Assembly (NCBI RefSeq): GCF_027887165.1
Contig: NC_077231.1
Coordinates: forward strand, 194,668,334-194,732,333
Source: Monodelphis domestica
Taxonomy: Eukaryota > Chordata > Mammalia > Didelphimorphia > Didelphidae
Reading direction: 5' to 3'
Length of the DNA: 64,000 nucleotides
Part shown: positions 9,318-64,000 of the stretch, in pieces
Layout of the letters: the number at the start of each line of letters is the position of its first letter
Numbering within the stretch: position 1 is the first letter of the stretch
Translations under genes and position numbers: made by a program
The notes under the pieces: model-generated
The model's input: only the letters and a program-made list of their open reading frames with translations
What the model was told of the DNA's origin: nothing
Database searches by the model: none

Positions 9318-11458
9318 TGTGTGTGTGATCAGTGATGTCATATTATATTTCTACTCTCATAGTTCTTTCTCTCAGTGTAGTCAGCATTCTTTCCCAAAAG
9401 TCCTTCAGGAGTGTCCTGGTTTGGTGCATTGTTACTAGTTTTAAAGTCCATTACATTGGATTGTTCCACAATGTTTTACTTTCTGTGTACAATTTTCTCC
9501 TGGTTCTGCTCACTTCACTCTGCATCAGTTCATTTAGATTCTCTCAGTTCATATGGAAAGCCTCCAGATCATCAATCCTTACAGCACAATAATATTCCAT
9601 CCCCATCAGATACCACAATTTGTTCAGCCATTCCCCAATTGAGGGACATCCCCTCATTTTCCAATTTTTTTTTTTGCCACCATAAAGAGCAAGACTATAA
9701 ATATTTTTAATCAAGTATTTTCCCTTATGATCTCTTTGGGATACAAACCCAGAAGTGATATGGCTGGATCAAAGGGTATGCATTCTTTTAAAGCCCTTTG
9801 GGCACAATCCCAAATTGCCCTCCAGAATGGCTGGATTAATTTACAACTCCACCATCAATGCATTAGTGTCCTGATTTTGCCACAACTCCAGCAACATTTG
9901 TTATTTTCCTTTACTGTCATATTGGCCAATCTGCCAGGTGTGAGGTGGTACCTCAGCACTATTTTGATTTGTGTTTCTCTCATTATAATATATTTAGAAC
10001 ACTTTTCATGTGCTTATTGATAGTTTTGATTTCTTTATCTGAAAACTCTCTATTCATGTCCCTTGACCATTTGTCAGTTGGAGAATGGCTTATTTTTTGT
10101 ACAAATGACTTAGCTCCTTATAAATTTGAGAAATGAGATCTTTTTCAGAGGTTTTTGTTATAAAAAAAAATTCCCCTCCAATTTGTTGCTTTACTTCTAA
10201 TTTTGGTTTGCATTGGTTTTGTTTGTACAGAAACTTTTTAATTTAATGTAATCAAAATTATCCACTTCACATTTTGCAGTCTTATCTATCTCTTGCTTGG
10301 CATTAAATTCCTCCCTTTCCCATATATTTGATGGATATATTATTCTATGTTCATCTAATTTGTTTATGATTTCCCTCTTTATATTTATTTACCTACTTTG
10401 AGTTAATCTCGGTTTAGGATTTAAAACCAATTTCCTATTCTCTCAGCAGCTTTTGTCACATAGTGGGTTGTTGTCCCGAAGGCTGGGACCTTTGGGTTTA
10501 TCAAACACTATCTTGCTCCTATCAAACACTATCTTGCTCCTGTCAATTACTCCAAGTCTACTCCATTGATCTCCCCTTCTATCTCTAATACATTAGCATA
10601 TAGTTTCAATGATCACTGCTTTATAGTAGAACTTGAGATCTGGTAAAGCTAGGCCTCCATCCTTAATTTTTTTTTTCATTATTTCCCTTGATATTCTTGA
10701 TCTTTTGTTCTTCCCAGTGGACTTTGTAATATTTTTTTCTAATTCTACAAAAAAGTATTTTGGTAGTTTGATAGGTATAGCACTGAATAAGTAAATTAAC
10801 TTAGGAAGGATTGTCATTTTTATTATATTACCTCATGCTACCCAGAAGCAATTGATGTTTTTTACAATTGTTTAGATCTAGTTTTATTTGTGCGAAGAGT
10901 GTTTTGTATTTATGTTCATACAATTCCTGATTTTGTCTTGGCAAGCAGATTCCCAGGTATTTTATCTTTCTAGAGTAACTTTAGATGGAGTTTCTCTTTC
11001 TAACTATTCCTGCTGGATTTTATTGGAAACAAATAGGAATGCTAATGATTTATGTGGGTTTATTTTGTACCCTGCCATTTTGCTAAAGTTATTGATTGCT
11101 TCTACTAGTTTTTTAGTTGATTTTCTTGGATTCTTTTCCTATACCATCATGTCATCTGCAAAGAATGATATTTTAGTTTCCTCACTGCCCACTTTGATGC
11201 CTTTAATTTCTTTTTCTTTTCTAACTGCTACTGTTAATATTTCTAGTACAATATTAAATAGTACTGGTGATAATGGGCATCCCTGCTTCACTCCTGATTT
11301 TATTTAGGAAGGTTTCTATCTTGCCCGCATTGGAGATGATACTTGTTAATGGTTGGTTTTAAATAAATACTGTTTATTATTTTGAGGAATCCCTTCTATT
11401 CCTATGCTTTCTAATGTTTTCAATAGGAATGGGTGTTGTAAATGAATTTTTTGAAAAG
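9070..11458 (-). mobile_element. Old L1, 5'-truncated, 3' half of ORF2 plus 3' UTR
   Basis: Aligns collinearly, with many substitutions and indels, to the 3' part of the young minus-strand L1 at 33-35.4 kb. The 3' UTR is at about 9,070-9,330, the ORF2 C-terminal region at 9,330-10,590, and reverse transcriptase C-terminal sequence at 10,593-10,817, readable as a 74-codon piece with '[20 protein letters not shown]' and 'GGLALPDLKFYYKA'. Further RT sequence runs to about 11,456, including the antisense of the FADD-type catalytic block near 11,150. Frames are broken throughout. Its 5' end lies at about 11,458, next to a SINE. At 9,276-9,314 it holds an (AT)n run, and at about 10,499-10,545 a short tandem duplication. 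Confidence 0.92.
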
Positions 11459-16891: not shown

Positions 16892-17593
16892 GGACTTCCG
16901 GTTAAGATGGTGGCTTAGAGAAAGCTGAAGTTCAGATCTCCGGAAAACCCTTCCCGACCGATCTCAAACTAGAAGCTCCTAAGGCGCCGAAATTCAAAAC
17001 GATCAACAGCACAGACCCTGGGAACCCTCCTCCTGGACCTGGACCCGGTTCAAAAGGTACGGCTCCCCTTAAAAGCCAGAACCCGAGATCCCTCGGACCT
17101 CAGGGGTAGGAGCGCAGAGTCCAAGGCTCCCGGAAGCGGCAGCCGCGCCAGGCTCAGAGAGCAGGGTCTGAGGAACAACAACCCTCAGGGTCTTCTACCC
17201 AAGTCCCAGTCCTGGTGAAAGTTACTGCCTGGGGCCTCCACTGCAGAGAGCTGGTCAAAACAACAGCAACCCTCAGGGCGGGCAAGACAGCCTCACGGGC
17301 TGGATCCTGCTATCCAAGTCTCAGTGAAAGTCTGTGCTCTCGGAGCTTGGGGAAGCGGCAGCCCATCCCCCCGCAGGCCGACGAAACAGCCTCACGGCCA
17401 GGGATTCTGAAGGCAACTTCCGGAAATCGAGCCAGGGGGAGAGTGTGGCCTCGTGGTCCGACCCTTCCATTCCAGTTCCAGTGAGGCATATTCAGTTTAA
17501 CCCAGGGAACGCTCATAGAACCAACATCTGCCCAGGACTAAAGCCTCTGATCACCAGACAAAGACAAGAAAAGCCAATCCTCCACGTTCAGAG
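16892..17593 (+). promoter_or_regulatory. L1 5' UTR / internal promoter region
   Basis: About 700 bases, much richer in GC and CpG than the surroundings ('gcggcagccgcgccaggctc', 'ccccccgcaggccgacgaaa'), directly upstream of ORF1. L1 5' UTRs hold the internal promoter (family knowledge). Imperfect internal repetition is visible: 'acaacaaccctcagggtctt' near 17,175 and 'caacagcaaccctcagggcg' near 17,262, each followed by 'ccaagtc(t/c)cagt' and 'gaaagt', as if it were built from diverged monomers. Confidence 0.85.
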
Positions 17594-18517
17594 ATGACAA
17601 ACTCCACAGAAGCACAGAAGCCCCAAAATACCAAGAAAAATAAGAAGAAAGGGGCGACTCTGGACACATTCTATGGAGCCAAAATACAAAATACAGAGCA
17701 GATAGAAGAAGATATACAAGAAAATTCTCCAAAATCTTCCAAAGGAAATAGAAACTCTCCACAAACCCATGAAGAATTTGAATCAGAAAGGACCAAAAAG
17801 ATGGAAGCCCTCTGGGAGGAAAAGTGGGAAATGATGCAAAAGAAATTCACGCATCTACAAAACCAGTTTGACCAAACTGTAAAAGAAAACCAGGCTTTAA
17901 AGCAAGAACTAATAAAGCAAAGCCAAAACACCAAGAAATTAGAAGAGAACATAAAATATCTCACCGACAAGGTGATAGATCTGGAAAACAGGGGGAGAAG
18001 AGAAAATTTAAGAATAATTGGACTCCCAGAAAAGCCAGAAATAAACACCAAACTGGACATGGTGATACAAGATATAATCAAAGAAAATTGCCCAGAGATT
18101 CTAGAACAAGGGGGCAATACAGCCACTGACAGAGCTCACAGAACACCTTCTACACTAAACCCCCAAAAGACAACTCCCAGGAATGTAATTGCCAAATTCC
18201 AAAGCTATCAAACAAAAGAAAAAATCCTACAGGAAGCCAGAAAAAGACAATTTAGATATAAAGGAATGCCAATCAGGGTCACACAAGACCTTGCAAGTTC
18301 TACGCTGAATGATCGTAAGGCATGGAACATGATCTTCAGAAAGGCAAGAGAGCTGGGTCTCCAACCAAGAATCAGCTACCCAGCAAAACTGACTATATAC
18401 TTCCAAGGGAAAGTATGGGCATTCAACAAAATAGAAGACTTCCAACTTTTTGCAAAGAAAAGACCAGAGCTCTGTGGAAAGTTTGATACCGAAAATCAAA
18501 GAGCAAGGAATACCTGA
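17594..18517 (+). CDS. L1 ORF1 protein (RNA-binding chaperone), intact
   Basis: 307 residues, unbroken. ORF1p coats L1 RNA and is needed for retrotransposition (family knowledge). Visible parts: a Lys-rich N-terminus (K14-K19, in 'KKNKKKG'); a charged, heptad-like coiled coil at about residues 60-132 ('KKMEALWEEKWEMMQKKF' to 'YLTDKVIDLENRGRRENL'), which in the family mediates trimerisation; an RRM-like domain starting 'NLRIIGLPE' (138-146); and a C-terminal domain with 'IRVTQDLASSTLNDRKAWN' (about 227-245). It differs from the minus-strand copy at five residues (T2A, A7P, A177S, S261N, A264S). The start lies about 700 bases into the element in both copies. ORF2 follows after a 528-nt spacer. 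Confidence 0.96.
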   Translation: MTNSTEAQKPQNTKKNKKKGATLDTFYGAKIQNTEQIEEDIQENSPKSSKGNRNSPQTHEEFESERTKKMEALWEEKWEMMQKKFTHLQNQFDQTVKENQALKQELIKQSQNTKKLEENIKYLTDKVIDLENRGRRENLRIIGLPEKPEINTKLDMVIQDIIKENCPEILEQGGNTATDRAHRTPSTLNPQKTTPRNVIAKFQSYQTKEKILQEARKRQFRYKGMPIRVTQDLASSTLNDRKAWNMIFRKARELGLQPRISYPAKLTIYFQGKVWAFNKIEDFQLFAKKRPELCGKFDTENQRARNT

Positions 18518-18689
18518 AAAGGTAAATATTAAGGAAAGGGGAAAAATGTTATCTTCTTTTACTCAAACTCTCTTCTATAAGGACTACATTTATATCAACC
18601 TATGTATACTAATATGTGGGGAAAATGTAATGTATAAATAGGGGGTAAAGAAAGACCAAATAGAATAATGGTTCTCACACAAAGATTCA

Positions 18690-19000
18690 CAGGGGAAGGG
18701 GAGGGGAAGAAAACTCCTATAAGAAGGAGAGGAAGAGGGGGGGGGTTTACTTAAACCTCAATCTCAGGGAAATCAACTCTGAGAGGGAAAAACATCCAGA
18801 TCCATTGGGATCTTGAATTCTATCTTACCCAACAAGGGTAAGGAGAAGGGAAAACCAAGGGGGGGAGGGGGAGAGGGAGAACAAAAAGGGAGGGAAAGAG
18901 AGGGGGGAGGGGGAGGGAACAAAAAGGGAGGGACTAAAAAGGGAAACATCAAGGGAGGGGACAAGGGGGACTGATTCAAAGTAAATCACTGGACTAAAAG
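18690..19000 (+). repeat. Polypurine G-rich spacer between L1 ORF1 and ORF2
   Basis: Runs such as 'agaggggggggg', 'ggggggagggggagaggg' and 'gaggggggagggggaggg' on the coding strand. The spacer (18,518-19,045) is long for an L1 and is conserved in the second copy (37,107-37,636). G-quadruplex or R-loop formation is plausible but inferred. Confidence 0.8.
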
Positions 19001-19045
19001 GTAGAGCCGAAGAAGAAAAGGTTAGAATTAGGGAAGGCAATCAAA

Positions 19046-22000
19046 ATGCCAGGGAGTCCACAAATGACAATCATAACTTTGAACGTGAATGGGATGAACT
19101 CACCCATAAAACGTAGACGAATAGCTGAATGGATTAGAATCCAAAACCCTACCATATGTTGTCTTCAAGAAACACACATGAGGCGGGTTGACACCCACAA
19201 GGTCAGAATTAAAGGATGGAGTAAGACCTTCTGGGCCTCAACTGATAGAAAGAAGGCAGGAGTGGTAATCATGATATCTGATAAAGCCAATGCAAAAATA
19301 GACCTGATCAAAAGGGATAGGGAAGGTAATTATATTTTGTTAAAAGGGACTCTAGACAATGAGGAAATATCATTAATCAACATGTATGCACCAAATAATA
19401 TAGCACCCAAATTTCTAATGGAGAAACTAGGAGAATTGAAGGAAGAAATAGACAATAAAACCATACTAGTGGGAGACTTAAACCAACCATTATCAAATTT
19501 AGATAAATCAAATCAAAAAATAAATAAGAAAGAGGTAAAAGAAGTGAATGAAATCTTAGAAAAATTAGAATTAATAGACATATGGAGAAAAATAAATAGG
19601 GATAAAAAGGAATACACCTTCTTCTCAGCACCACATGGCACATTCACAAAAATTGACCATACATTAGGTCACAGAAACATAGCACACAAATGCAAAAAAG
19701 CAGAAATAATGAATGCAGCCTTCTCAGATCACAAGGCAATAAAAATAATGATTAGTAATGGTACATGGAAAACCAAATCTAAAACCAATTGGAAATTAAA
19801 CAATATGATACTCCAAAACCGTTTAGCTAAAGAAGAAATCATAGAAACAATTAATAATTTCATCAAGGAAAATGACAATGGCGAAACATCCTTTCAAACC
19901 TTTTGGGATGCAGCCAAAGCGGTAATCAGAGGCAAATTCATATCCCTGAAAGCTCATATTAACAAACAAGGGAGAGCAGAGATCAATCAATTGGAAATGC
20001 AATTGAAAAAACTCGAAAGCGATCAAATTAAAAACCCCCAGCAGAAAACCAAATTAGAAATCCTAAAAATTAAGGGAGAAATTAATAAAATCGAAAGTGA
20101 TAGAACTATTGATTTAATAAATGAGACAAGAAGCTGGTACTTTGAAAAAACAAACAAAATAGACAAAGTACTGGTCAATCTAATTAAAAAAAGGAAGGAA
20201 GAAAAGCAAATTCACAGCATTAAAGATGAAAAGGGGGACAGCACCTCCAATGAGGAGGAAATTAAGGCAATCATTAGAAATTACTTTGCCCAATTATATG
20301 GCAATAAATACACCAATTTAGGAGAAATGGATGAATATATACAAAAATACAAACTGCCTAGACTAACAGAAGAGGAAATAGAATTCTTAAATAATCCCAT
20401 ATCAGAAATTGAAATCCATCAAGCCATCAAAGAACTTCCTAAGAAAAAATCCCCAGGGCCTGATGGATTCACCTGTGAATTCTATCAAACATTCAGAGAA
20501 CAGTTAACCCCAATACTATACAAACTATTTGACATAATAAGCAAAGAGGGAGTTCTACCAAACTCCTTTTACGACACAAACATGGTACTGATTCCAAAAC
20601 CAGGCAGGTCAAAACAGAGAAAGAAAACTATAGACCAATCTCCCTAATGAATATAGATGCAAAAATTTTAAATAGGATACTAGCAAAAAGACTCCAGCAA
20701 GTGATCAGAAGGATCATTCACCATGATCAAGTAGGATTCATACCAGGGATGCAGGGCTGGTTCAACATTAGGAAAACCATCCACATAATTGACCACATCA
20801 ACAAGCAAACTAGCAAGAACCACATGATTATCTCAATAGATGCAGAAAAAGCCTTTGATAAAATACAACACCCATTCCTATTAAAAACACTAGAAAGCAT
20901 AGGAATAGAAGGGTCATTCCTAAAAATAATAAACAGTATATATCTAAAACCAACAGCTAATATCATCTGCAATGGGGATAAACTAGATGCATTCCCAATA
21001 AGATCAGGAGTGAAACAAGGATGCCCATTATCACCTCTACTATTTGACATTGTACTAGAAACACTAGCAGTAGCAATTAGAGAAGATAAAGAAATTGAAG
21101 GCATCAGAATAGGCAAGGAGGAGACCAAGTTATCACTCTTTGCGGATGACATGATGGTCTACTTAAAGAATCCTAGAGATTCAACCAAAAAGCTAATTGA
21201 AATAATCAACAACTTTAGCAAAGTTGCAGGATACAAAATAAACCCACATAAATCATCAGCTTTTCTATATATCTCCAACACAGCTCAGCAGCAAGAACTA
21301 GAAAGAGAAATCCCATTCAAAATCACCTTAGACAAAATAAAATACCTAGGAATCTATCTCCCAAGACAAACACAGGAACTATATGAACACAACTACAAAA
21401 CACTCGCCACACAACTAAAACTAGACTTGAACAATTGGAAAAACATTAACTGCTCATGGATAGGACGAGCCAATATAATAAAAATGACCATCCTACCCAA
21501 ACTTATTTATCTATTTAGTGCCATACCCATTGAACTACCAAAATACTTCTTCACTGATTTAGAAAAAACCATAACAAAGTTCATTTGGAAGAACAAAAGA
21601 TCAAGGATATCCAGGGAAATAATGAAAAAAAAAACACATATGATGGGGGCCTTGCAGTCCCAGACCTCAAACTATATTACAAAGCAGCAGTCATCAAAAC
21701 AATTTGGTACTGGCTAAGAAACAGAAAGGAAGATCAGTGGAATAGACTGGGGGAAAACGACCTCAGCAAGACAGTATACGATAAACCCAAAGATCCCAGC
21801 TTTTGGGACAAAAATCCACTATTCGATAAAAACTGCTGGGAAAATTGGAAGACAGTGTGGGAGAGACTAGGAATAGATCAACACCTCACACCCTACACCA
21901 AGATAAATTCAAAATGGGTGAGTGACTTAAACATAAAGAAGGAAACCATAAGTAAATTGGGTAAACACAGAATAGTATACATGTCAGACCTTTGGGAGGG

Positions 22001-22853
22001 GAAAGGCTTTAAAACCAAGCAAGATATAGAAAGAATCACAAAATGTAAAATAAATAATTTTGACTACATCAAACTAAAAAGCTTTTGTACAAACAAAACC
22101 AATATAACTAAGATCGGAAGGAAAACAACAAATTGGGAAAAAATCTTCATAGAAACCTCTGACAAAGGTTTAATTACTCATATTTATAATGAGCTAAATC
22201 AATTGTACAAAAAATCAAGCCATTCTCCAATTGATAAATGGGCAAGGGAAATGGATGGGCAGTTCTCAGATGGAGAAATCAGGGCTATTAACGGGCACAT
22301 GAAGAAGTGTTCTACATCTCTTATAATCAGAGAGATGCAAATCAGGACAACTCTGGGGTATCACCTCACACCTAGCAGATTGGCTAACATAACAGCAAAG
22401 GAAAGTAATGAATGCTGGAGGGGATGTGGCAAGGTAGGGACATTGGTTCATTGCTGGTGGAGCTGTGAACTGGTCCAGCCATTCTGGAGGGCAATTTGGA
22501 ACTATGCCCAAAGGGCGACAAAAGAATATCTACCCTTTGACCCAGCCATGGCACTGCTGGGTCTGTGCCCCAAAGAGATAATGGACACAAAGACTTGTAC
22601 AAGAATGTTCATGGCTGCGCTCTTTGTGGTGGCCCAAAACTGGAAAACGAGGGGATGCCCATCAATTGGGGAATGGCTGAACAAACTGTGGTATATGTTG
22701 GTGATGGAATACTATTGTGCTCAAAGGAATAATAAAGTGGAGAAGTTCCATGGAGACTGGAACAACCTCCAGGAAGTGATGCAGAGCGAGAGGAGCAGAA
22801 CCAGGAGAACATTGTACACAGAGACTAATACACTGTGGTATAATCGAACGTAA
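19046..22853 (+). pseudogene. L1 ORF2 (endonuclease / reverse transcriptase), two frame breaks
   Basis: ORF2p nicks target DNA and reverse-transcribes L1 RNA. Three frame segments, 19,046-20,647, 20,647-21,717 and 21,585-22,853, cover the usual domains in order. Endonuclease: LNVNG (residues 12-16), QETH (41-44), VGDLNQP, SDHKAI. Reverse transcriptase: [30 protein letters not shown], and the catalytic FADDMMVY near 21,137-21,160. C-terminus: a Cys/His motif C-x3-C-x8-H-C-x3-C near 22,415-22,470. Break 1: four A at 20,611-20,614 where the minus-strand copy has five, a private 1-nt deletion. Break 2: ten A at 21,625-21,634, shared with the minus-strand copy. The endonuclease and N-terminal RT region are in one frame; the rest is out of frame. 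An A-to-G cluster changes many C-terminal residues (R/K to G, I to V or M, Y to C). Confidence 0.96.
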
Positions 22854-23195
22854 TGGACTTCTACATTAGGGGCAGTGTAATGTCCCTGAACAACTTTCAG
22901 GGATCCAGGAGAAAAAAAAAACACCATTCATAAGCAAAGGATAAACTATGGGAGTGGAAACACCGAGAAAAAGCAACTGCCTGAATACAGAGGTTGAGGG
23001 GACATGACAGAGGATAGACTTTAAATGAACACTCTAATGCAAATACTAACAACAAAGCAATGGGTTCAAATCAAGAAAACATCTAATGCCCAGTGGACTT
23101 ACGCGTCGGCTATGGGGGGTGGGGGGAGGAAAAGAAAATGATCTATGTCTTTAACGAATAATGCTTGGAAATGATCAAATAAAATATATTTAAAA
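22854..23195 (+). other. L1 3' UTR and poly(A) end
   Basis: From the ORF2 stop to the A-tail. It includes an A-run (10 A, about 22,912), a G-rich segment 'ggggggtggggggagg' (about 23,115) and the signal 'aataaaatatattt' just before a short A tail and the 3' target duplication. Confidence 0.9.
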
Positions 23196-32950: not shown

Positions 32951-33297
32951 TTTTTTTTTAATATATTTTATTTGATCATTTCCAAGCATTATTCGTTAAA
33001 GACATAGATCATTTTCTTTTCCTCCCCCCCACCCCCCATAGCCGACGCGTAAGTCCACTGGGCATTAGATGTTTTCTTGATTTGAACCCATTGCTTTGTT
33101 GATAGTATTTGCATTAGAGTGTTCATTTAAAGTCTATCCTCTGTCATGTCCCCTCAACCTCTGTATTCAGGCAGTTGCTTTTTCTCGGTGTTTCCACTCC
33201 CATAGTTTATCCTTTGCTTATGAATGGTGTTTTTTTTTTCTCCTGGATCCCTGAAAGTTGTTCAGGAACATTACACCGCCCCTAATGGAGAAGTCCA

Positions 33298-36200
33298 TTA
33301 CGTTCGATTATACCACAGTGTATTAGTCTCTGTGTACAATGTTCTCCTGGTTCTGCTCCTCTCGCTCTGCATCACTTCCTGGAGGTTGTTCCAGTCTCCA
33401 TGGAACTTCTCCACTTTATTATTCCTTTGAGCACAATAGTATTCCATCACCAACATATACCACAGTTTGTTCAGCCATTCCCCAATTGATGGGCATCCCC
33501 TCGTTTTCCAGTTTTGGGCCACCACAAAGAGCGCAGCTATGAATATTTTTGTACAAGTCTTTGTGTCCATTATCTCTTTGGGGTACAGACCCAGCAGTGC
33601 TATGGCTGGGTCAAAGGGTAGATATTCTTTTGTCGCCCTTTGGGCATAGTTCCAAATTGCCCTCCAGAATGGTTGGATCAGTTCACAACTCCACCAGCAA
33701 TGAATTAATGTCCCTACTTTGCCACATCCCCTCCAGCATTCATTACTTTCCTTTGCTGTTATGTTAGCCAATCTGCTAGGTGTGAGGTGATACCTCAGAG
33801 TTGTTTTGATTTGCATCTCTCTGATTATAAGAGATGTAGAACACTTCTTCATGTGCTTGTTAATAGTTTTGATTTCTTTATCTGAGAACTGCCTATCCAT
33901 TTCCCTTGCCCATTTATCAATTGGAGAATGGCTTGATTTTTTGTACAATTGATTTAGCTCATTATAAATATGAGTAATTAAACCTTTGTCAGAGGTTTCT
34001 ATGAAGATTTTTTCCCAATTTGTTGTTTCCCTTCTGATTTTAGTTATATTGGTTTTGTTTGTACAAAAGCTTTTTAGTTTGATGTAGTCAAAATTATTTA
34101 TTTTACATTTTGTGATTCTTTCTATATCTTGCTTGGTTTTAAAGCCTTTCCCCTCCCAAAGGTCTGACATGTATACTATTCTGTGTTTACCCAATTTACT
34201 TATGGTTTCCTTCTTTATGTTTAAGTCACTCACCCATTTTGAATTTATCTTGGTGTAGGGTGTGAGGTGTTGATCTATTCCTAGTCTCTCCCACACTGTC
34301 TTCCAATTTTCCCAGCAGTTTTTATCGAATAGTGGATTTTTGTCCCAAAAGCTGGGATCTTTGGGTTTATCGTATACTGTCTTGCTGAGGTCGTTTTCCC
34401 CCAGTCTATTCCACTGATCTTCCTTTCTGTTTCTTAGCCAGTACCAAATTGTTTTGATGACTGCTGCTTTGTAATATAGTTTGAGGTCTGGGACTGCAAG
34501 GCCCCCATCATATGTGTTTTTTTTTTCATTATTTCCCTGGATATCCTTGATCTTTTGTTCTTCCAAATGAACTTTGTTATGGTTTTTTCTAAATCAGTGA
34601 AGAAGTATTTTGGTAGTTCAATGGGTATGGCACTAAATAGATAAATAAGTTTGGGTAGGATGGTCATTTTTATTATATTGGCTCGTCCTATCCATGAGCA
34701 GTTAATGTTTTTCCAATTGTTCAAGTCTAGTTTTAGTTGTGTGGCGAGTGTTTTGTAGTTGTGTTCATATAGTTCCTGTGTTTGTCTTGGGAGATAGATT
34801 CCTAGGTATTTTATTTTGTCTAAGGTGATTTTGAATGGGATTTCTCTTTCTAGTTCTTGCTGCTGAGCTGTGTTGGAGATATATAGAAAAGCTGATGATT
34901 TATGTGGGTTTATTTTGTATCCTGCAACTTTGCTAAAGTTGTTGATTATTTCAATTAGCTTTTTGGTTGAATCTCTAGGATTCTTTAAGTAGACCATCAT
35001 GTCATCCGCAAAGAGTGATAACTTGGTCTCCTCCTTGCCTATTCTGATGCCTTCAATTTCTTTATCTTCTCTAATTGCTACTGCTAGTGTTTCTAGTACA
35101 ATGTCAAATAGTAGAGGTGATAATGGGCATCCTTGTTTCACTCCTGATCTTATTGGGAATGCATCTAGTTTATCCCCATTGCAGATGATATTAGCTGTTG
35201 GTTTTAGATATATACTGTTTATTATTTTTAGGAATGACCCTTCTATTCCTATGCTTTCTAGTGTTTTTAATAGGAATGGGTGTTGTATTTTATCAAAGGC
35301 TTTTTCTGCATCTATTGAGATAATCATGTGGTTCTTGCTAGTTTGCTTGTTGATGTGGTCGATTATGTGGATGGTTTTCCTAATGTTGAACCAGCCCTGC
35401 ATCCCTGGTATGAATCCTACTTGATCATGGTGAATTATCCTTCTGATCACTTGCTGGAGTCTTTTTGCTAGTATCCTATTTAAAATTTTTGCATCTATAT
35501 TCATTAGGGAGATTGGTCTATAGTTTTCTTTCTCTGTTTTTGACCTGCCTGGTTTTGGAATCAGTACCATGTTTGTGTCGTAAAAGGAGTTTGGTAGAAC
35601 TCCCTCTTTGCTTATTATGTCAAATAGTTTGTATAGTATTGGGGTTAACTGTTCTCTGAATGTTTGATAGAATTCACAGGTGAATCCATCAGGCCCTGGG
35701 GATTTTTTCTTAGGAAGTTCTTTGATGGCTTGATGGATTTCAATTTCTGATATGGGATTATTTAAGAATTCTATTTCCTCTTCTGTTAGTCTAGGCAGTT
35801 TGTATTTTTGTATATATTCATCCATTTCTCCTAAATTGGTGTATTTATTGCCATATAATTGGGCAAAGTAATTTCTAATGATTGCCTTAATTTCCTCCTC
35901 ATTGGAGGTGCTGTCCCCCTTTTCATCTTTAATGCTGTGAATTTGCTTTTCTTCCTTCCTTTTTTTAATTAGATTGACCAGTACTTTGTCTATTTTGTTT
36001 GTTTTTTCAAAGTACCAGCTTCTTGTCTTATTTATTAAATCAATAGTTCTATCACTTTCGATTTTATTAATTTCTCCCTTAATTTTTAGGATTTCTAATT
36101 TGGTTTTCTGCTGGGGGTTTTTAATTTGATCGCTTTCGAGTTTTTTCAATTGCATTTCCAATTGATTGATCTCTGCTCTCCCTTGTTTGTTAATATGAGC

Positions 36201-37106
36201 TTTCAGGGATATGAATTTGCCTCTGATTACCGCTTTGGCTGCATCCCAAAAGGTTTGAAAGGATGTTTCGCCATTGTCATTTTCCTTGATGAAATTATTA
36301 ATTGTTTCTATGATTTCTTCTTTAGCTAAACGGTTTTGGAGTATCATATTGTTTAATTTCCAATTGGTTTTAGATTTGGTTTTCCATGTACCATTACTAA
36401 TCATTATTTTTATTGCCTTGTGATCTGAGAAGGCTGCATTCATTATTTCTGCTTTTTTGCATTTGTGTGCTATGTTTCTGTGACCTAATGTATGGTCAAT
36501 TTTTGTGAATGTGCCATGTGGTGCTGAGAAGAAGGTGTATTCCTTTTTATCCCTATTTATTTTTCTCCACATGTCTATTAATTCTAATTTTTCTAAGATT
36601 TCATTCACTTCTTTTACCTCTTTCTTATTTATTTTTTGATTTGATTTATCTAAATTTGATAATGGTTGGTTTAAGTCTCCCACTAGTATGGTTTTATTGT
36701 CTATTTCTTCCTTCAATTCTCCTAGTTTCTCCATTAGAAATTTGGGTGCTATATTATTTGGTGCATACATGTTGATTAATGATATTTCCTCATTGTCTAG
36801 AGTCCCTTTTAACAAAATATAATTACCTTCCCTATCCCTTTTGATCAGGTCTATTTTTGCATTGGCTTTATCAGATATCATGATTACCACTCCTGCCTTC
36901 TTTCTATCAGTTGAGGCCCAGAAGGTCTTACTCCATCCTTTAATTCTGACCTTGTGGGTGTCAACCCGCCTCATGTGTGTTTCTTGAAGACAACATATGG
37001 TAGGGTTTTGGATTCTAATCCATTCTGCTATTCGTCTACGTTTTATGGGTGAGTTCATCCCATTCACGTTCAAAGTTATGATTGTCATTTGTGGACTCCC
37101 TGGCAT
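33298..37106 (-). pseudogene. L1 ORF2 (endonuclease / reverse transcriptase), one frame break
   Basis: Two frame segments. 34,434-37,106 (890 codons) includes the whole endonuclease (LNVNG, QETH, VGDLNQP, SDHKAI) and reverse transcriptase through the catalytic FADDMMVY (near 35,000-35,020) and beyond. 33,298-34,566 (422 codons) holds the C-terminal domain with the Cys/His motif C-x3-C-x8-H-C-x3-C. They join at a ten-T run (34,517-34,526; ten A on the coding strand) where a -1 shift moves from the first frame to the second. All catalytic motifs lie before the break, so a truncated endonuclease-RT protein could be made in one frame. Lacking the C-terminal domain, it would probably not retrotranspose well (family knowledge). 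Confidence 0.96.
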
Positions 37107-37636
37107 TTTGATTGCCTTCCCTAATTCTAACCTTTTCTTCTTCGGCTCTACCTTTTAGTCCAGTGATTTACTTTGAATCAGTCCCCCTTGTCCCCTCCCT
37201 TGATGTTTCCCTTTTTAGTCCCTCCCTTTTTGTTCCCTCCCCCTCCCCCCTCTCTTCCCCTCCCTTTTTGTTCTCCCTCTCCCCCTCCCCCCCTTGGTTT
37301 TCCCTTCTCCTTACCCTTGTTGGGTAAGATAGAATTCAAGATCCCAATGGATCTGGATGTTTTTCCCTCTCAGAGTTGATTTCCCTGAGATTGAGGTTTA
37401 AGTAAACCCCCCCCCTCTCTTCCTCTCCTTCTTATAGGAGTTTTCTTCCCCTCCCCTTCCCCTGTGAATCTTTGTGTGAGAACCATTATTCTATTTGGTC
37501 TTTCTTTACCCCCTATTTATACATTACATTTTCCCCATATATTAGTATACATAGATTGATATAAATGTAGTCCTTATAGAAGAGAGTTTGAGTAAAAGAA
37601 GATAACATTTTTCCCCTTTCCTTAATATTTACCTTT

Positions 37637-38560
37637 TCAGGTATTCCTTGCTCTTTGATTTTCGGTATCAAACTTTCCACAGAGCTCTGGTCTTTTCTTT
37701 GCAAAAAGTTGGAAGTCTTCTATTTTGTTGAATGCCCATACTTTCCCTTGGAAGTATATAGTCAGTTTTGATGGGTAGTTGATTCTTGGTTGGAGACCCA
37801 GCTCTCTTGCCTTTCTGAAGATCATGTTCCATGCCTTACGATCATTCAGAGTAGAACTTGCAAGGTCTTGTGTGACCCTGATTGGCATTCCTTTATATCT
37901 AAATTGTCTTTTTCTGGCTTCCTGTAGGATTTTTTCTTTTGTTTGATAGCTTTGGAATTTGGCAATTACATTCCTGGGAGTTGTCTTTTGGGGGTTTAGT
38001 GTAGAAGGTGTTCTGTGAGCTCTGTCAGTGGATGTATTGCCCCCTTGTTCTAGAATCTCTGGGCAATTTTCTTTGATTATATCTTGTATCACCATGTCCA
38101 GTTTGGTGTTTATTTCTGGCTTTTCTGGGAGTCCAATTATTCTTAAATTTTCTCTTCTCCCCCTGTTTTCCAGATCTATCACCTTGTCGGTGAGATATTT
38201 TATGTTCTCTTCTAATTTCTTGGTGTTTTGGCTTTGCTTTATTAGTTCTTGCTTTAAAGCCTGGTTTTCTTTTACAGTTTGGTCAAACTGGTTTTGTAGA
38301 TGCGTGAATTTCTTTTGCATCATTTCCCACTTTTCCTCCCAGAGGGCTTCCATCTTTTTGGTCCTTTCTGATTCAAATTCTTCATGGGTTTGTGGAGAGT
38401 TTCTATTTCCTTTGGAAGATTTTGGAGAATTTTCTTGTATATCTTCTTCTATCTGCTCTGTATTTTGTATTTTGGCTCCATAGAATGTGTCCAGAGTCGC
38501 CCCTTTCTTCTTATTTTTCTTGGTATTTTGGGGCTTCTGTGGTTCTGTGGAGTTTGCCAT
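37637..38560 (-). CDS. L1 ORF1 protein (RNA-binding chaperone), intact
   Basis: 307 residues, unbroken, same layout as the plus-strand copy: basic N-terminus, coiled coil at about 60-132, RRM-like domain from 'NLRIIGLPE', C-terminal domain. It differs from that copy at five residues: A2, P7, S177, N261 and S264 here. The spacer to ORF2 is 530 nt. Two intact ORF1s with so few changes support recent insertion of both elements. Confidence 0.96.
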   Translation of the reverse strand: MANSTEPQKPQNTKKNKKKGATLDTFYGAKIQNTEQIEEDIQENSPKSSKGNRNSPQTHEEFESERTKKMEALWEEKWEMMQKKFTHLQNQFDQTVKENQALKQELIKQSQNTKKLEENIKYLTDKVIDLENRGRRENLRIIGLPEKPEINTKLDMVIQDIIKENCPEILEQGGNTSTDRAHRTPSTLNPQKTTPRNVIAKFQSYQTKEKILQEARKRQFRYKGMPIRVTQDLASSTLNDRKAWNMIFRKARELGLQPRINYPSKLTIYFQGKVWAFNKIEDFQLFAKKRPELCGKFDTENQRARNT

Positions 38561-39302
38561 TTCTGAACGTGGAGGATTAGTTTTTCTTGCCTCTGTCTGG
38601 TGTTCAGAGGCAGTCCTGGGCAGATGGTTCTATGAGCTTTCCCTGGGTTAAACTGAATATGCCTCACTGGAACTGGAATGGAAGGGTCGGACCACGAGGC
38701 CACACTCTCCCCCTGGCTCGATTTCCGGAAGTTGCCTTCAGAATCCCTGGCCGTGAGGCTGTTTCGTCGGCCTGCGGGGGGATGGGCTGCCGCTTCCCCA
38801 AGCTCCGAGAGCACAGACTTTCACTGAGACTTGGATAGCAGGATCCAGCCTGTGAGGCTGTCTTGCCCGCCCTGAGGGTTGCTGTTGTTTTGACCAGCTC
38901 TCTGCAGCGGAGGCCCCAGGCAGTAACTTTCACCCGGACCAACCGGCTCTCTGCAGCGGAAGCCCCAGGCAGTAACTTTCACCCGGACTGGGACTTGGGT
39001 AGAAGACCCTGAGGGTTGTTGTTCCTCAGACCCTGCTCTCTGAGCCTGGCGCGGCTGCCGCTTCCGGGAGCCTTGGACTCTGCGCTCCTACCCCTGAGGT
39101 CCGAGGGATCTCGGGTTCTGGCTTTTAAGGGGAGCCGTACATTTTGAACCGGGTCCAGGTCCAGGAGGAGGGTTCCCAGGGTCTGTGCTGTTGATCGTTT
39201 TGAATTTCGGCGCCTTAGGAGCTTCTAGTTTGAGATCGGTCGGGAAGGGTTTTCCGGAGATCTGAACTTCAGCTTTCTCTAAGCCGCCATCTTAACCGGA
39301 AC
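38561..39302 (-). promoter_or_regulatory. L1 5' UTR / internal promoter with an extra 49-bp unit
   Basis: GC- and CpG-rich, like the plus-strand copy. Here 'gctctctgcagcgg(a/g)(a/g)gcc' with 'ccaggcagtaactttcaccc' occurs twice in tandem (about 38,894-38,942 and 38,943-38,991), a 49-bp period. The plus-strand L1 has one such unit (near 17,212-17,252). Confidence 0.88.
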
Positions 39303-48010: not shown

Positions 48011-48743
48011 GTCACTGACCTGTGTGGTATAAATTTGGGATCACTGGATGGATGATGCCTTGTGTCATCCAGATAGATTGGGGTTTGCTGTGGCTCCATT
48101 ATAATCAATATGGCCTTGTTTCTGACTCATTTCTGCCAACTCATATCTCTAACTTGGCTCCACCATGTCCCTCGCAGAATCCTAAAATTTCTATCCCTTT
48201 TCTATCTTTCTACCTTGTGGCTTCTCGCCCTAGAGGCCACAGGTTACAAGCTGCTAATAGGCCATACCCATCATAGAATTCTATGTTGCACTGTGCAACA
48301 TTTGTTCTCATTTTTTGGAAGTGGTGCTATTTCATATTTTTTACCATACAACTATACTGATAGACTATTAGTAATAAAAAAAGTCTTTGGTTTTAGTAGA
48401 AACCTGGAGTCATTAAGGAAGCTTTGCAATTCAGTAAACACTTAATAAATATGTCTTGCACTGAATTGAACTGGATGTCTTGGAGCCTTGCAGGGCTGTT
48501 TTCTGTTGCCTCAGCATGTTCTCCATTCTCACACAGTCTTTATCTGCCAGATCAATTGTACTAGTAGCTGGGGGGCTGTTCCTTTCACTCACACAATCAC
48601 AGATTATCAATAGGAAAACATCAAGTGCAGGCACCCCTAAGAACTTAAAATAGTCTAGCTGAGATCTATATTCTCCATGGGCACTGTACCACTGGTCATA
48701 GCCTTATGCAACAGCTTTTGCAGACAACAAAGAGTTAGGGACT

Positions 48744-48980
<237 letters not shown>

Positions 48981-61334: not shown

Positions 61335-64000
61335 TCTTTTTAAAAAAATTTTTTAAATCAATTAATTAATTAATTTTTTTAGTTTTTAAAACATTATTTT
61401 ATTTGGTCATTTTCATACATTGTTCATTGGAAACAGATAATTTTCTTTTCATTCCCCCCTCAAATTCCACCCCCCCACCACCCCTTCCCTAGCCGATGGG
61501 CGATTCGTCTGGGTATCACATGTGTCCTTGCTCTGACCCCATTTCCTTGTTGGTATTTGCATTAGGGTGCTCATTTAGCATCTCTCCTCGATCATGTCCC
61601 CTCAACCTCTGTAGGCAAGCAGTTGTTTTTCCTTGGTGTTTTTACTCCCTCAGTTTGTCCTCTGCTTGAGGATAGTTTTTTTTTTTTCTCGTAGATTGCT
61701 GCAGGTTGTTCAGGGACATTGTAAAGCCATTACTGGAGAAGTCCAGTACGTTCTCTTGTACCACAATGTGTCAGTCTCTGTGTACAATTTTCTCCTGGTT
61801 CTGCTCCTTTCGCTCTGCATCACTTCTTTGAGGTTGTTCCAGTCTCAATGGAATTCCTCTACTTTATTATTCCTTTTAGCACAATAGTATTCCATCACCA
61901 ACATATACCACAATTTGTTCAGCCATTCCCCAATTGAAGGGCATCCCCTCATTTTCCAATTTTTGGCCACCACAAAGAGTGCAGCTATGAATATTCTTGT
62001 ACAAGTCTTTTCCCTTATTATCTCTTGGGGAACAAACCCAGCAGTGCCATGGCTGGATCGAAGGGCAGACAGTCTTTTAGTGCCCTTTGGGCATAGTTCC
62101 AAATAGCCCTCCAGAATGGTTGGATCAATTCACAACTCCACCAGCAAGGCATTAATGTCCTTACTTTGCCTGCATCCCCTCCAGCATTCATTACTTTCCA
62201 TAGCTGTAATGTTAGCCAATCTGCTTGGTGTGAGCTGATACCTCAGAGTTGTTTTGATTTGCATTTCTCTGATTATAAAAGATCTAGAACACTTTTTCAT
62301 GTGCTTATTAATAGTCTTGATTTCTTTAACTGAAAATTACCTATTCATGTCCCTTGCCCATTTTTCAATTGGAGAATGGCTTGATTTTTTGTACAACTGG
62401 TTTAGCTCTTTATAGATTTGAGTAATTTGGCCTTTGTCAGAGGTTTTTGTTATGAAGATTGTTTCCCAATTTGTTGATTTCCTTCTAATTTTAATTACAT
62501 TGGTTTTGTTTGTACTGAAAAATTTTAATTTGATGTAGTCAAAATTATTTATTTTGCATTTTGTGACTCTTTCTAAGTCTTGCTTGGTTTTAAAATCTTT
62601 CCCTTCCCAAAGGTCTGACATGTATACTATTCTGTGTTTACCTAACTTACTTATAGTTTCCTTCTTTATATTCAAGTCATTTTCCCATTCTGAGTTTATC
62701 TTGGTGTAGGGTTTGAGATGTTGATCCAAACCTAATCTCTCCCACACTGTCTTCCAATTTTTCCAGCAGTTTTTATCAAATACTGGATTTTTGTCCCAAA
62801 AGCTGGGACAAAAGCTTTTTTTTTTACAAGGTAGTACCTATTTAATCAACTTTTGAGGACAGAGCCCAAACCCCTGTACAAAAACCACCAAAACTTGTCT
62901 TTGGGAAAATAATGAAATGTACATAAAAACCAACGGGGGTGGGGGAAGGAGAAAAACTTATCAATTTGTTGGTGGAGGAGGAGGAACATTTCCAGGTCCT
63001 TCTGAGGGAAGAGGGGGCTGCAACATTGGGGGCATAGGAGTTGGGGGATGTACTCCTGGGTTTGGGGGGTGTACACCTGGGGCTTGGGTATGAATCCCTG
63101 GAGCTTAGGGATGAACCCCTGGAGCCTGAGGGTGAACCCCTGGAGCCTGAGGGTGAACTCCTAGAGCCTGAGGGTGAACCCCTGGAGCCTGGGGATGAAC
63201 CCCAGGAGCCTGGGGGTGTACCCCAGGTGCTTGGGGATGAACCCCTGGAGCTTGAGTGTAAACTCCTAGAGCTTGGGCGTGAACCCCAGGTGCTTGGGGG
63301 TGAACCCCTGGAGCCTGAGGATGAACCCCAGGTGCTTGGGGGTGTACCCCAGGACCTTGAGGGTGAACCCCAGGTGCTTGGGGATGAACTCCTGGAGCCT
63401 GAGGATGCACCCCAGGTGCAGGGGGGTGTACCCCAGGAGCCAGGGGATGCACCCCAGGAGCTGAGGGATGTACCCCAGGAGCTGGGGGATGCACTCTTGG
63501 AGCAGGAGGGTGCACCCCTGGAGCAGAAGGATGTACTCCAGGAGCAGGGGGATGTACCCCGGGAGCAGGAGGATATACCCCAGGAGCAGGTGGGTGAACT
63601 CTAGGAGCTGGAGGGGGCATCTGAGGAGGCCCGGGAGGGCCAGGACGTGCAGGCCCACTGGGAGGTATGGGTGGCAGAGGCATGCCACCTGGAGGTGGGG
63701 GTGGCAAAGACTCTGGCAGAGGTGGTCGAGGAGGCAAACCATTCATCAGTGGGAGTGGGGGCCACTTCACTCCAGGAGGCCCAGCAGGGAGGGCTGGAGG
63801 CACAGGAGGCTTCTCCATCTTAAAATGGAACTGGAAAAAAAACTGCTTAGTTTCTCTGTTCCATTGGGTCCAAAACTTCCCTTCTGCCTTGTCAAAGACT
63901 GTCTTACTGAGGTCATTTACCCCAAGTCTATTCCACTGATCCTCCTTTCTGTCTCTTAACCAGTACCAAATTGTTTTGATGACCTCTGCTTTGTAATATA
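61335..64000 (-). mobile_element. Older L1 3' part, interrupted by an SF3A2 retrocopy
   Basis: Aligns in order to the young L1 3' UTR and ORF2 C-terminus: 3' UTR at about 61,335-61,850, the ORF2 end, then a 136-codon readable block at 62,337-62,747 ('SKLGKHRIVYMSDLWEGKDF'). It continues to 62,808, breaks for the retrocopy, and resumes at 63,894 ('gactgtcttactgaggtc') to the window edge. Several stops and indels break ORF2. It is more diverged than the pair at 17-39 kb and less than the one at 9 kb. It serves as an outgroup for the A-to-G cluster. It continues past the window. Confidence 0.93.
62816..63893 (-). pseudogene. SF3A2: SF3A2 processed pseudogene (5'-truncated retrocopy)
   Basis: SF3A2 is a subunit of the SF3a complex of U2 snRNP. 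This copy has no introns and reads on the minus strand from an internal codon (D-K-A-E-G-K-F-W, at 63,893) through 'WNRETKQFF', 'QFHFKMEKPPVPPALPAGPP', a proline-rich stretch and about 24 heptads of the type P-x-A-P-G-V-H (21-bp units). A TAA at 63,105-63,107 interrupts the repeats. The same frame then stays open for 47 more codons to the normal C-terminus ('PSEGPGNVPPPPPTN') and TGA at 62,961-62,963. A 3' UTR with ATTAAA (62,841-62,846) ends in a ten-A tail (62,816-62,825). The N-terminal zinc-finger half is absent. It lies inside an old L1. No promoter is visible, so function is unlikely. Confidence 0.93.

Follow-up and report, generated by a model that had tools for sequence, protein, structure and literature searches.

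Clusters of A-to-G changes of the type left by ADAR have already been described in retroviruses (PMC12925331; PMC8586724). In Rous-associated virus and avian leukosis virus, hyperediting by ADAR is described as leaving A-to-G clusters in a reverse-transcribed element, as is seen at the locus presented here (PMC12925331; PMC8586724). These avian cases concern retroviruses with LTRs, and the account of them centers on the U3 LTR and an inverted-repeat region with nearly half of its adenosines changed (PMC12925331). Beyond the retroviruses, a 2016 review states that the roles of ADAR editing in the evolution of Alu subfamilies have "not yet been determined" (PMC4982230). Among the matches listed from the open-access literature, none was seen to report an ADAR scar in an L1 inserted in a genome, and the excerpted text of PMC5974252, PMC6669771, PMC7006430, and PMC6497032 contains no genomic A-to-G case. 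In high-quality DNA traces from human and Xenopus, clusters of A-to-G or T-to-C changes are reported not to be in excess (PMC2873906). This null result speaks against a frequent process, although a comparison of traces with their own reference would miss fixed insertions.

The locus considered here is a block of A-to-G changes in the ORF2 of a young L1 element of the opossum Monodelphis domestica. It lies in a stretch of 64,000 nucleotides, referred to as the window, whose L1 type looks marsupial. Compared with the avian retroviruses, the opossum block belongs to a non-LTR genomic element, has 12% of its adenosines changed, and is accompanied by just an 18-bp inverted pair. Most likely, the RNA of an L1 formed a duplex, underwent editing by ADAR, and was then inserted at this locus.

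The L1 copies and the A-to-G block

The window holds four L1 copies, two of them young and two older (Table 1). The young copies are 98.9% identical over 5995 aligned columns and were aligned with MAFFT, the minus-strand copy serving as the reference with A and the plus-strand copy being the one with G. A search of the PDB with 431 C-terminal ORF2 residues from the minus-strand copy matched human LINE-1 ORF2p chains with an E-value of 2.7e-131. Pfam assigned no family to the two ORF2 pieces, and their identification as L1 ORF2 is based on the PDB matches. Forty residues of PDB 9d2f chain J (cilia- and flagella-associated protein 61, residues 287-326) also match L1 ORF2 (E 3.5e-11), and an exon or the gene model may thus contain a piece of L1. 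Rfam gave nothing at the gathering score, and at the sensitivity of the searches used, other L1 copies had no match in phage records by blastn or in viral contigs with six peptide patterns. In bacterial genome contigs, seven stretches matched a pattern, and none of the seven proved to be a relative by tblastn.

Table 1. Positions in the window of the L1 copies, the A-to-G block, and associated features
Feature	Position	Strand	Remarks
Young near-full-length L1 with the hypermutated block	16892..23195	+	ORF2 frame broken; from alignment
Open stretches of the plus-strand L1	17519-18514, 18998-20644, 20533-21714, 21558-22850	+	
5' target-site duplication of the plus-strand L1	16876..16891	+	16-bp repeat
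3' target-site duplication of the plus-strand L1	23196..23211	+	16-bp repeat
A-to-G hypermutated block	22112..22613	+	23/195 A's changed; MAFFT alignment
T-to-C, sole other plus-strand-derived change in the block	22463	+	
Reverse difference (G-to-A)	22122	+	A in both outgroups
Predicted stem, 5' arm	22218..22235	+	18 pairs, one G-U; 0/5 A's changed
Predicted stem, 3' arm	22661..22678	+	0/5 A's changed
Tract with only 2 differences between the young L1s besides the 23 A-to-G sites	20791..22862	+	Boundaries post hoc
Young near-full-length L1 without the G states (reference copy)	32951..39302	-	From alignment
Target-site duplications of the minus-strand L1	32937-32950 and 39303-39316		14 bp
Older L1 3' fragment (outgroup, 62-kb copy)	61472..62808	-	
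Still older L1 piece (second outgroup, 9.4-kb copy)	9444..11440	-	

The target-site duplications of the two young L1s, one of 16 bp and the other of 14 bp, differ from each other, and the two copies are therefore separate target-primed insertions and did not arise from a single locus duplicated in inverted orientation. In both copies the ORF2 frame is interrupted, at 21558-21714 in the plus-strand L1 and at the corresponding place in the minus-strand one. The source L1 may already have been defective and mobilised in trans, or a like change may have arisen twice. Near 20.6 kb, the plus-strand copy alone has an additional frame break. Nine mixed substitutions separate the young L1s within some 100 bp around the ORF1 start (17510-17612), and two 3-base indels are interspersed with the first few of these. 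Close to the 5' end of the minus-strand L1, a 49-bp unit occurs twice (38893-38988), at a point where the plus-strand L1 lacks 49 bases. The window also contains CTTT tetranucleotide arrays at 1034-1596 (about 140 copies) and 48742-48980 (about 60 copies), and a minisatellite at 63036-63615 with periods of 21 and 42 bp, in which the 42-bp unit is repeated about 13 times with a match of 78%.

An earlier note on this DNA, made by eye, had counted 23 sites at which the plus-strand L1 carries G in place of A, and the MAFFT alignment recovered the same number. Its list of positions was right at 22 of the 23, the site given as 22606 being 22607, and the lone T-to-C and lone reverse difference that it had named were both found in the alignment. 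Elsewhere, where a few mixed differences had been claimed, the 5796 aligned bases outside the block differ by 31 substitutions, which are of 11 kinds and include 6 A-to-G and 7 G-to-A. The rate of A-to-G per A is 0.118 in the block and 0.0025 outside it (23/195 against 6/2375), and the proposed enrichment yields a Fisher p of 1.6e-21, a somewhat generous value given that the limits of the block are its first and last sites. Within these 502 bp, the plus-strand copy has acquired 23 A-to-G changes and one T-to-C, and other kinds are absent.

The changed A's are unevenly spread along the block, with 2/64 at 22112-22256, 11/44 in the densest part at 22257-22356, and then 5/40 and 5/47. No change is seen at any of the 61 consecutive A's between 22117 and 22256 (P 0.0005 if the rate were uniform), so either the editing was discontinuous or the first two sites do not belong with the rest. 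Flanking sequence is free of A-to-G through 81 A's on the 3' side (22614-22862) and 574 A's on the 5' side (20791-22111). When the sites were examined for helical periodicity, a period of 10 had p 0.03 with random draws and p 0.07 with rotation, and the other four periods gave p > 0.1.

The polarity of the changes is given by the outgroups. In the 62-kb copy, the states at the 23 sites are those previously reported, with A at 19, G at three, and T at one. The 9.4-kb copy, an outgroup that had not been considered in the earlier note, has A at 22 sites and G at one. The minus-strand copy and both outgroups agree on A at 18 of the 23 sites, and the remaining five have A in one outgroup. With A in at least one of the two outgroups at every site, the view that A is ancestral and the change directional is borne out. 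Since both outgroups carry A at 22122, the reverse difference arose on the side of the minus-strand L1. The 62-kb copy has G at 3/23 changed sites in comparison to 5/171 unchanged A's (p 0.055). Editing by APOBEC, which had been judged inconsistent with the direction, is ruled out by it, as both outgroups give A-to-G and not G-to-A.

Sequence context, codons, and RNA pairing

The bases 5' of the changed A's had been counted as A 12, T 7, C 2, and G 2, and these figures are exact. That count lacked a background, for which the block's 172 unchanged A's are used here. A or T precedes 19/23 changed A's in comparison to 95/172 unchanged A's, a moderately significant difference (p 0.013, from 23 sites only, which are partly adjacent), in line with the neighbor preference of ADAR that had been proposed. 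Sorted by the 5' base, the changed share is highest after T (7/32, 0.22), followed by A (12/82, 0.15), G (2/35, 0.06), and C (2/46, 0.04). Sorted by the 3' base, it is 0.19 before G (7/36), 0.12 before A (10/81), 0.10 before C (3/30), and 0.06 before T (3/48). Tests of single bases are weak, with p 0.07 for 5' T and p 0.15 for 3' G, despite the latter having the highest share on its side. A combined preference score was also used, ranking T, A, C, and G in this order on the 5' side, and G, then A or C, then T on the 3' side, which we take to be the preferences of ADAR. This score, composed after the counts were known and thus not blind, gave p 0.0014 in random draws of A's and p 0.005 under rotation, in which the spacing of the sites is kept.

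The 23 changes fall on codon positions 1, 2, and 3 in 8, 6, and 9 cases, respectively, and six of them are synonymous when taken singly, compared with 6.4 expected. As there is no synonymous excess, the changes look as if they had arisen without selection, unlike those of a functional subfamily. Fifteen residues are altered in total. Seven of these lose a residue common to the minus-strand copy and human ORF2p, five become the human ORF2p residue, and three do neither.

When 1590 nt of RNA spanning the block are folded on themselves by prediction, the changed A's are paired less often than the others (0.19 against 0.35, p 0.009), and this holds when trinucleotides are matched (p 0.023). A predicted stem of 18 pairs surrounds 21 of the 23 changed sites, and its 10 A's are all unchanged. 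The 18-base inverted match on which it rests is the longest found in the plus-strand L1. With G-U pairs allowed, a helix of that length occurred in 1/150 shuffles, a figure that applies to a stem picked after the fact, and with Watson-Crick pairs only, the longest helix is 10, which is ordinary. All 18 pairs are preserved in the 62-kb copy, where one has changed at both bases, and 16 are preserved in the 9.4-kb copy. The stem may be due to chance or be a by-product of coding. A local hairpin is not favored as the substrate, given the lower pairing of the changed A's in the predicted self-fold and the unchanged A's of the stem. Because the changed A's lie mostly outside the predicted helices, we think that a partner in trans is likelier than a self-fold. 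Antisense L1 RNA could come from host promoters (PMC8208052).

Origin of the block

In the history proposed here, sense L1 RNA would have been double-stranded over about 0.36-0.5 kb toward the 3' end of ORF2, and pairing in trans with antisense L1 RNA is more likely than the RNA's own fold. ADAR would have deaminated about 12% of the adenosines of this duplex to inosine, and the edited RNA would then have undergone target-primed reverse transcription at this locus, with inosine read as G. First-strand cDNA is antisense, and by the known mechanism its deamination would show as T-to-C. A-to-G on the sense strand therefore points to editing of the RNA, or else of the second DNA strand. Editing by ADAR, which the earlier note had put forward, is favored because the direction of change, the strand purity, the clustering, the neighboring bases, the codon pattern, which is free of constraint, and the separate insertions with their own target-site duplications all fit this enzyme. 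The lower predicted pairing of the changed A's, the run of 61 unchanged A's, the G states of the 62-kb copy, and the five residues that become those of human ORF2p count against it. The data show the cluster of one direction and one strand, its polarity, the neighbor preference, and the two independent insertions, and from these ADAR as the enzyme, the partner in the duplex, and editing in the RNA cycle of this very insertion as opposed to that of an ancestor are inferred.

A broader reading, to which about even confidence is given, holds that in the germline edited L1 RNA can complete retrotransposition, that ADAR thereby mutates L1 lineages, and that the lasting scars mark the L1 stretches that formed dsRNA in germ cells. 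At this locus, the duplex would have formed by pairing in trans or within a 0.46-kb domain closed by the stem, and the 3' tract may have been joined to another 5' part by template switching.

Among the alternatives, the one that survives best, while itself unlikely, places the editing earlier, with an edited L1 having founded a small lineage or having donated its tract by gene conversion or template switching. The ordinary differences between the young L1s number 2 in the 2072 bp of 20791-22862 in comparison to 31 in 4226 (p 0.0005, with the boundaries set post hoc), as if this tract had a distinct and more recent history. However, the contrast is 5 in 1793 against 2 in 2060 when only ORF2 is considered (p 0.26), and the low-difference tract could reflect template switching or conversion, or only that the untranslated ends and ORF1 change faster. 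Furthermore, with seven of the 15 altered residues being shared with human ORF2p before the change, such a lineage would not easily have been self-mobile. Even this alternative still requires ADAR at its origin, and editing of the RNA that gave rise to the present insertion is preferred.

Much less probable is an ordinary subfamily difference, or conversion from a divergent L1. L1 subfamilies are known to differ in blocks, and the G states of the 62-kb copy at three of the 23 sites, together with the five of 15 altered residues that equal those of human ORF2p, would suit such a donor. Mixed changes would be expected from it, however. A-to-G makes up between 0.19 and 0.27 of the four ordinary spectra measured here, and under each of them the probability of at least 23 A-to-G among 24 changes is at most 1.6e-12. 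In addition, a sliding scan of 500 columns for stretches of a single type of change was run over the 3' 2.4 kb, taking in all six pairs of the window's four L1s with p values left uncorrected. The best p was 3.8e-12 for the edited copy against the minus-strand young L1, 0.0011 and 0.037 for the edited copy against the two other L1s, and 0.36, 0.054, and 0.65 for the three pairs without the edited copy; a comparable stretch is thus absent from the other pairs in this region. The number of synonymous changes, which is close to expectation, likewise speaks against this origin. Even with a group of copies sharing the G states, the one-type spectrum asks for an ADAR-like origin further back.

The likelihood is smaller again for misincorporation by the reverse transcriptase, with C placed opposite A under, for example, unbalanced nucleotide pools. 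Such errors would likewise be expected to give A-to-G on the sense strand, but the patch is internal, with every A unchanged in the 3' and 5' flanks described above. A slippage mechanism would favor A after G, whereas A in this context changed at just 2/35 positions. An artefact of sequencing or assembly is equally hard to credit. One trace error is described that yields clusters of same-type mismatches and can enter reference genomes (PMC2873906), but that error is G-to-A, whereas here the odd copy has G, the three other copies in the window all have A at 18/23 sites, and the order of neighboring bases would be unexpected.

Relation to known deaminase marks

If genome-wide scans reveal more copies of this kind, the rate at which edited L1 RNA is re-inserted would become measurable, and the L1 regions that form dsRNA in germ cells could be mapped. 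In lineages with poor transcriptome data, the neighbor preference of ADAR could also be read from such copies.

APOBEC scars in genomic retrotransposons likewise preserve the mark of a deaminase, and for L1 in the lizard they are reported in 85/32872 elements (PMC3880073). They differ from the opossum block in that the change is G-to-A, the substrate is cDNA and not RNA, and the enzyme belongs to another family. Hyperediting of repeat-derived dsRNA in transcriptomes, as described in PMC5625713, shares with the block the base change, the neighbor preference, and repeats as targets. It is found in RNA and mostly in SINEs (PMC5625713), whereas the block is in DNA and in the coding region of an L1. 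In the restriction of LINE-1 by ADAR1, ADAR acts on the L1 ribonucleoprotein (PMC8208052; PMC12925331). This restriction is reported to be independent of editing (PMC8208052; PMC12925331), whereas in the block the editing itself seems to be recorded.

The preference described for ADAR is for U or A on the 5' side, with 5' G depleted and 3' G enriched (PMC5663115). A depletion of 5' G is also given in PMC5625713, along with a preference for 3' G in mammals, and the editing motif of the opossum itself is noisy in that account. The order of neighboring bases in the block agrees with the first of these descriptions (PMC5663115) and, for G on either side, with that of mammals in the second (PMC5625713).
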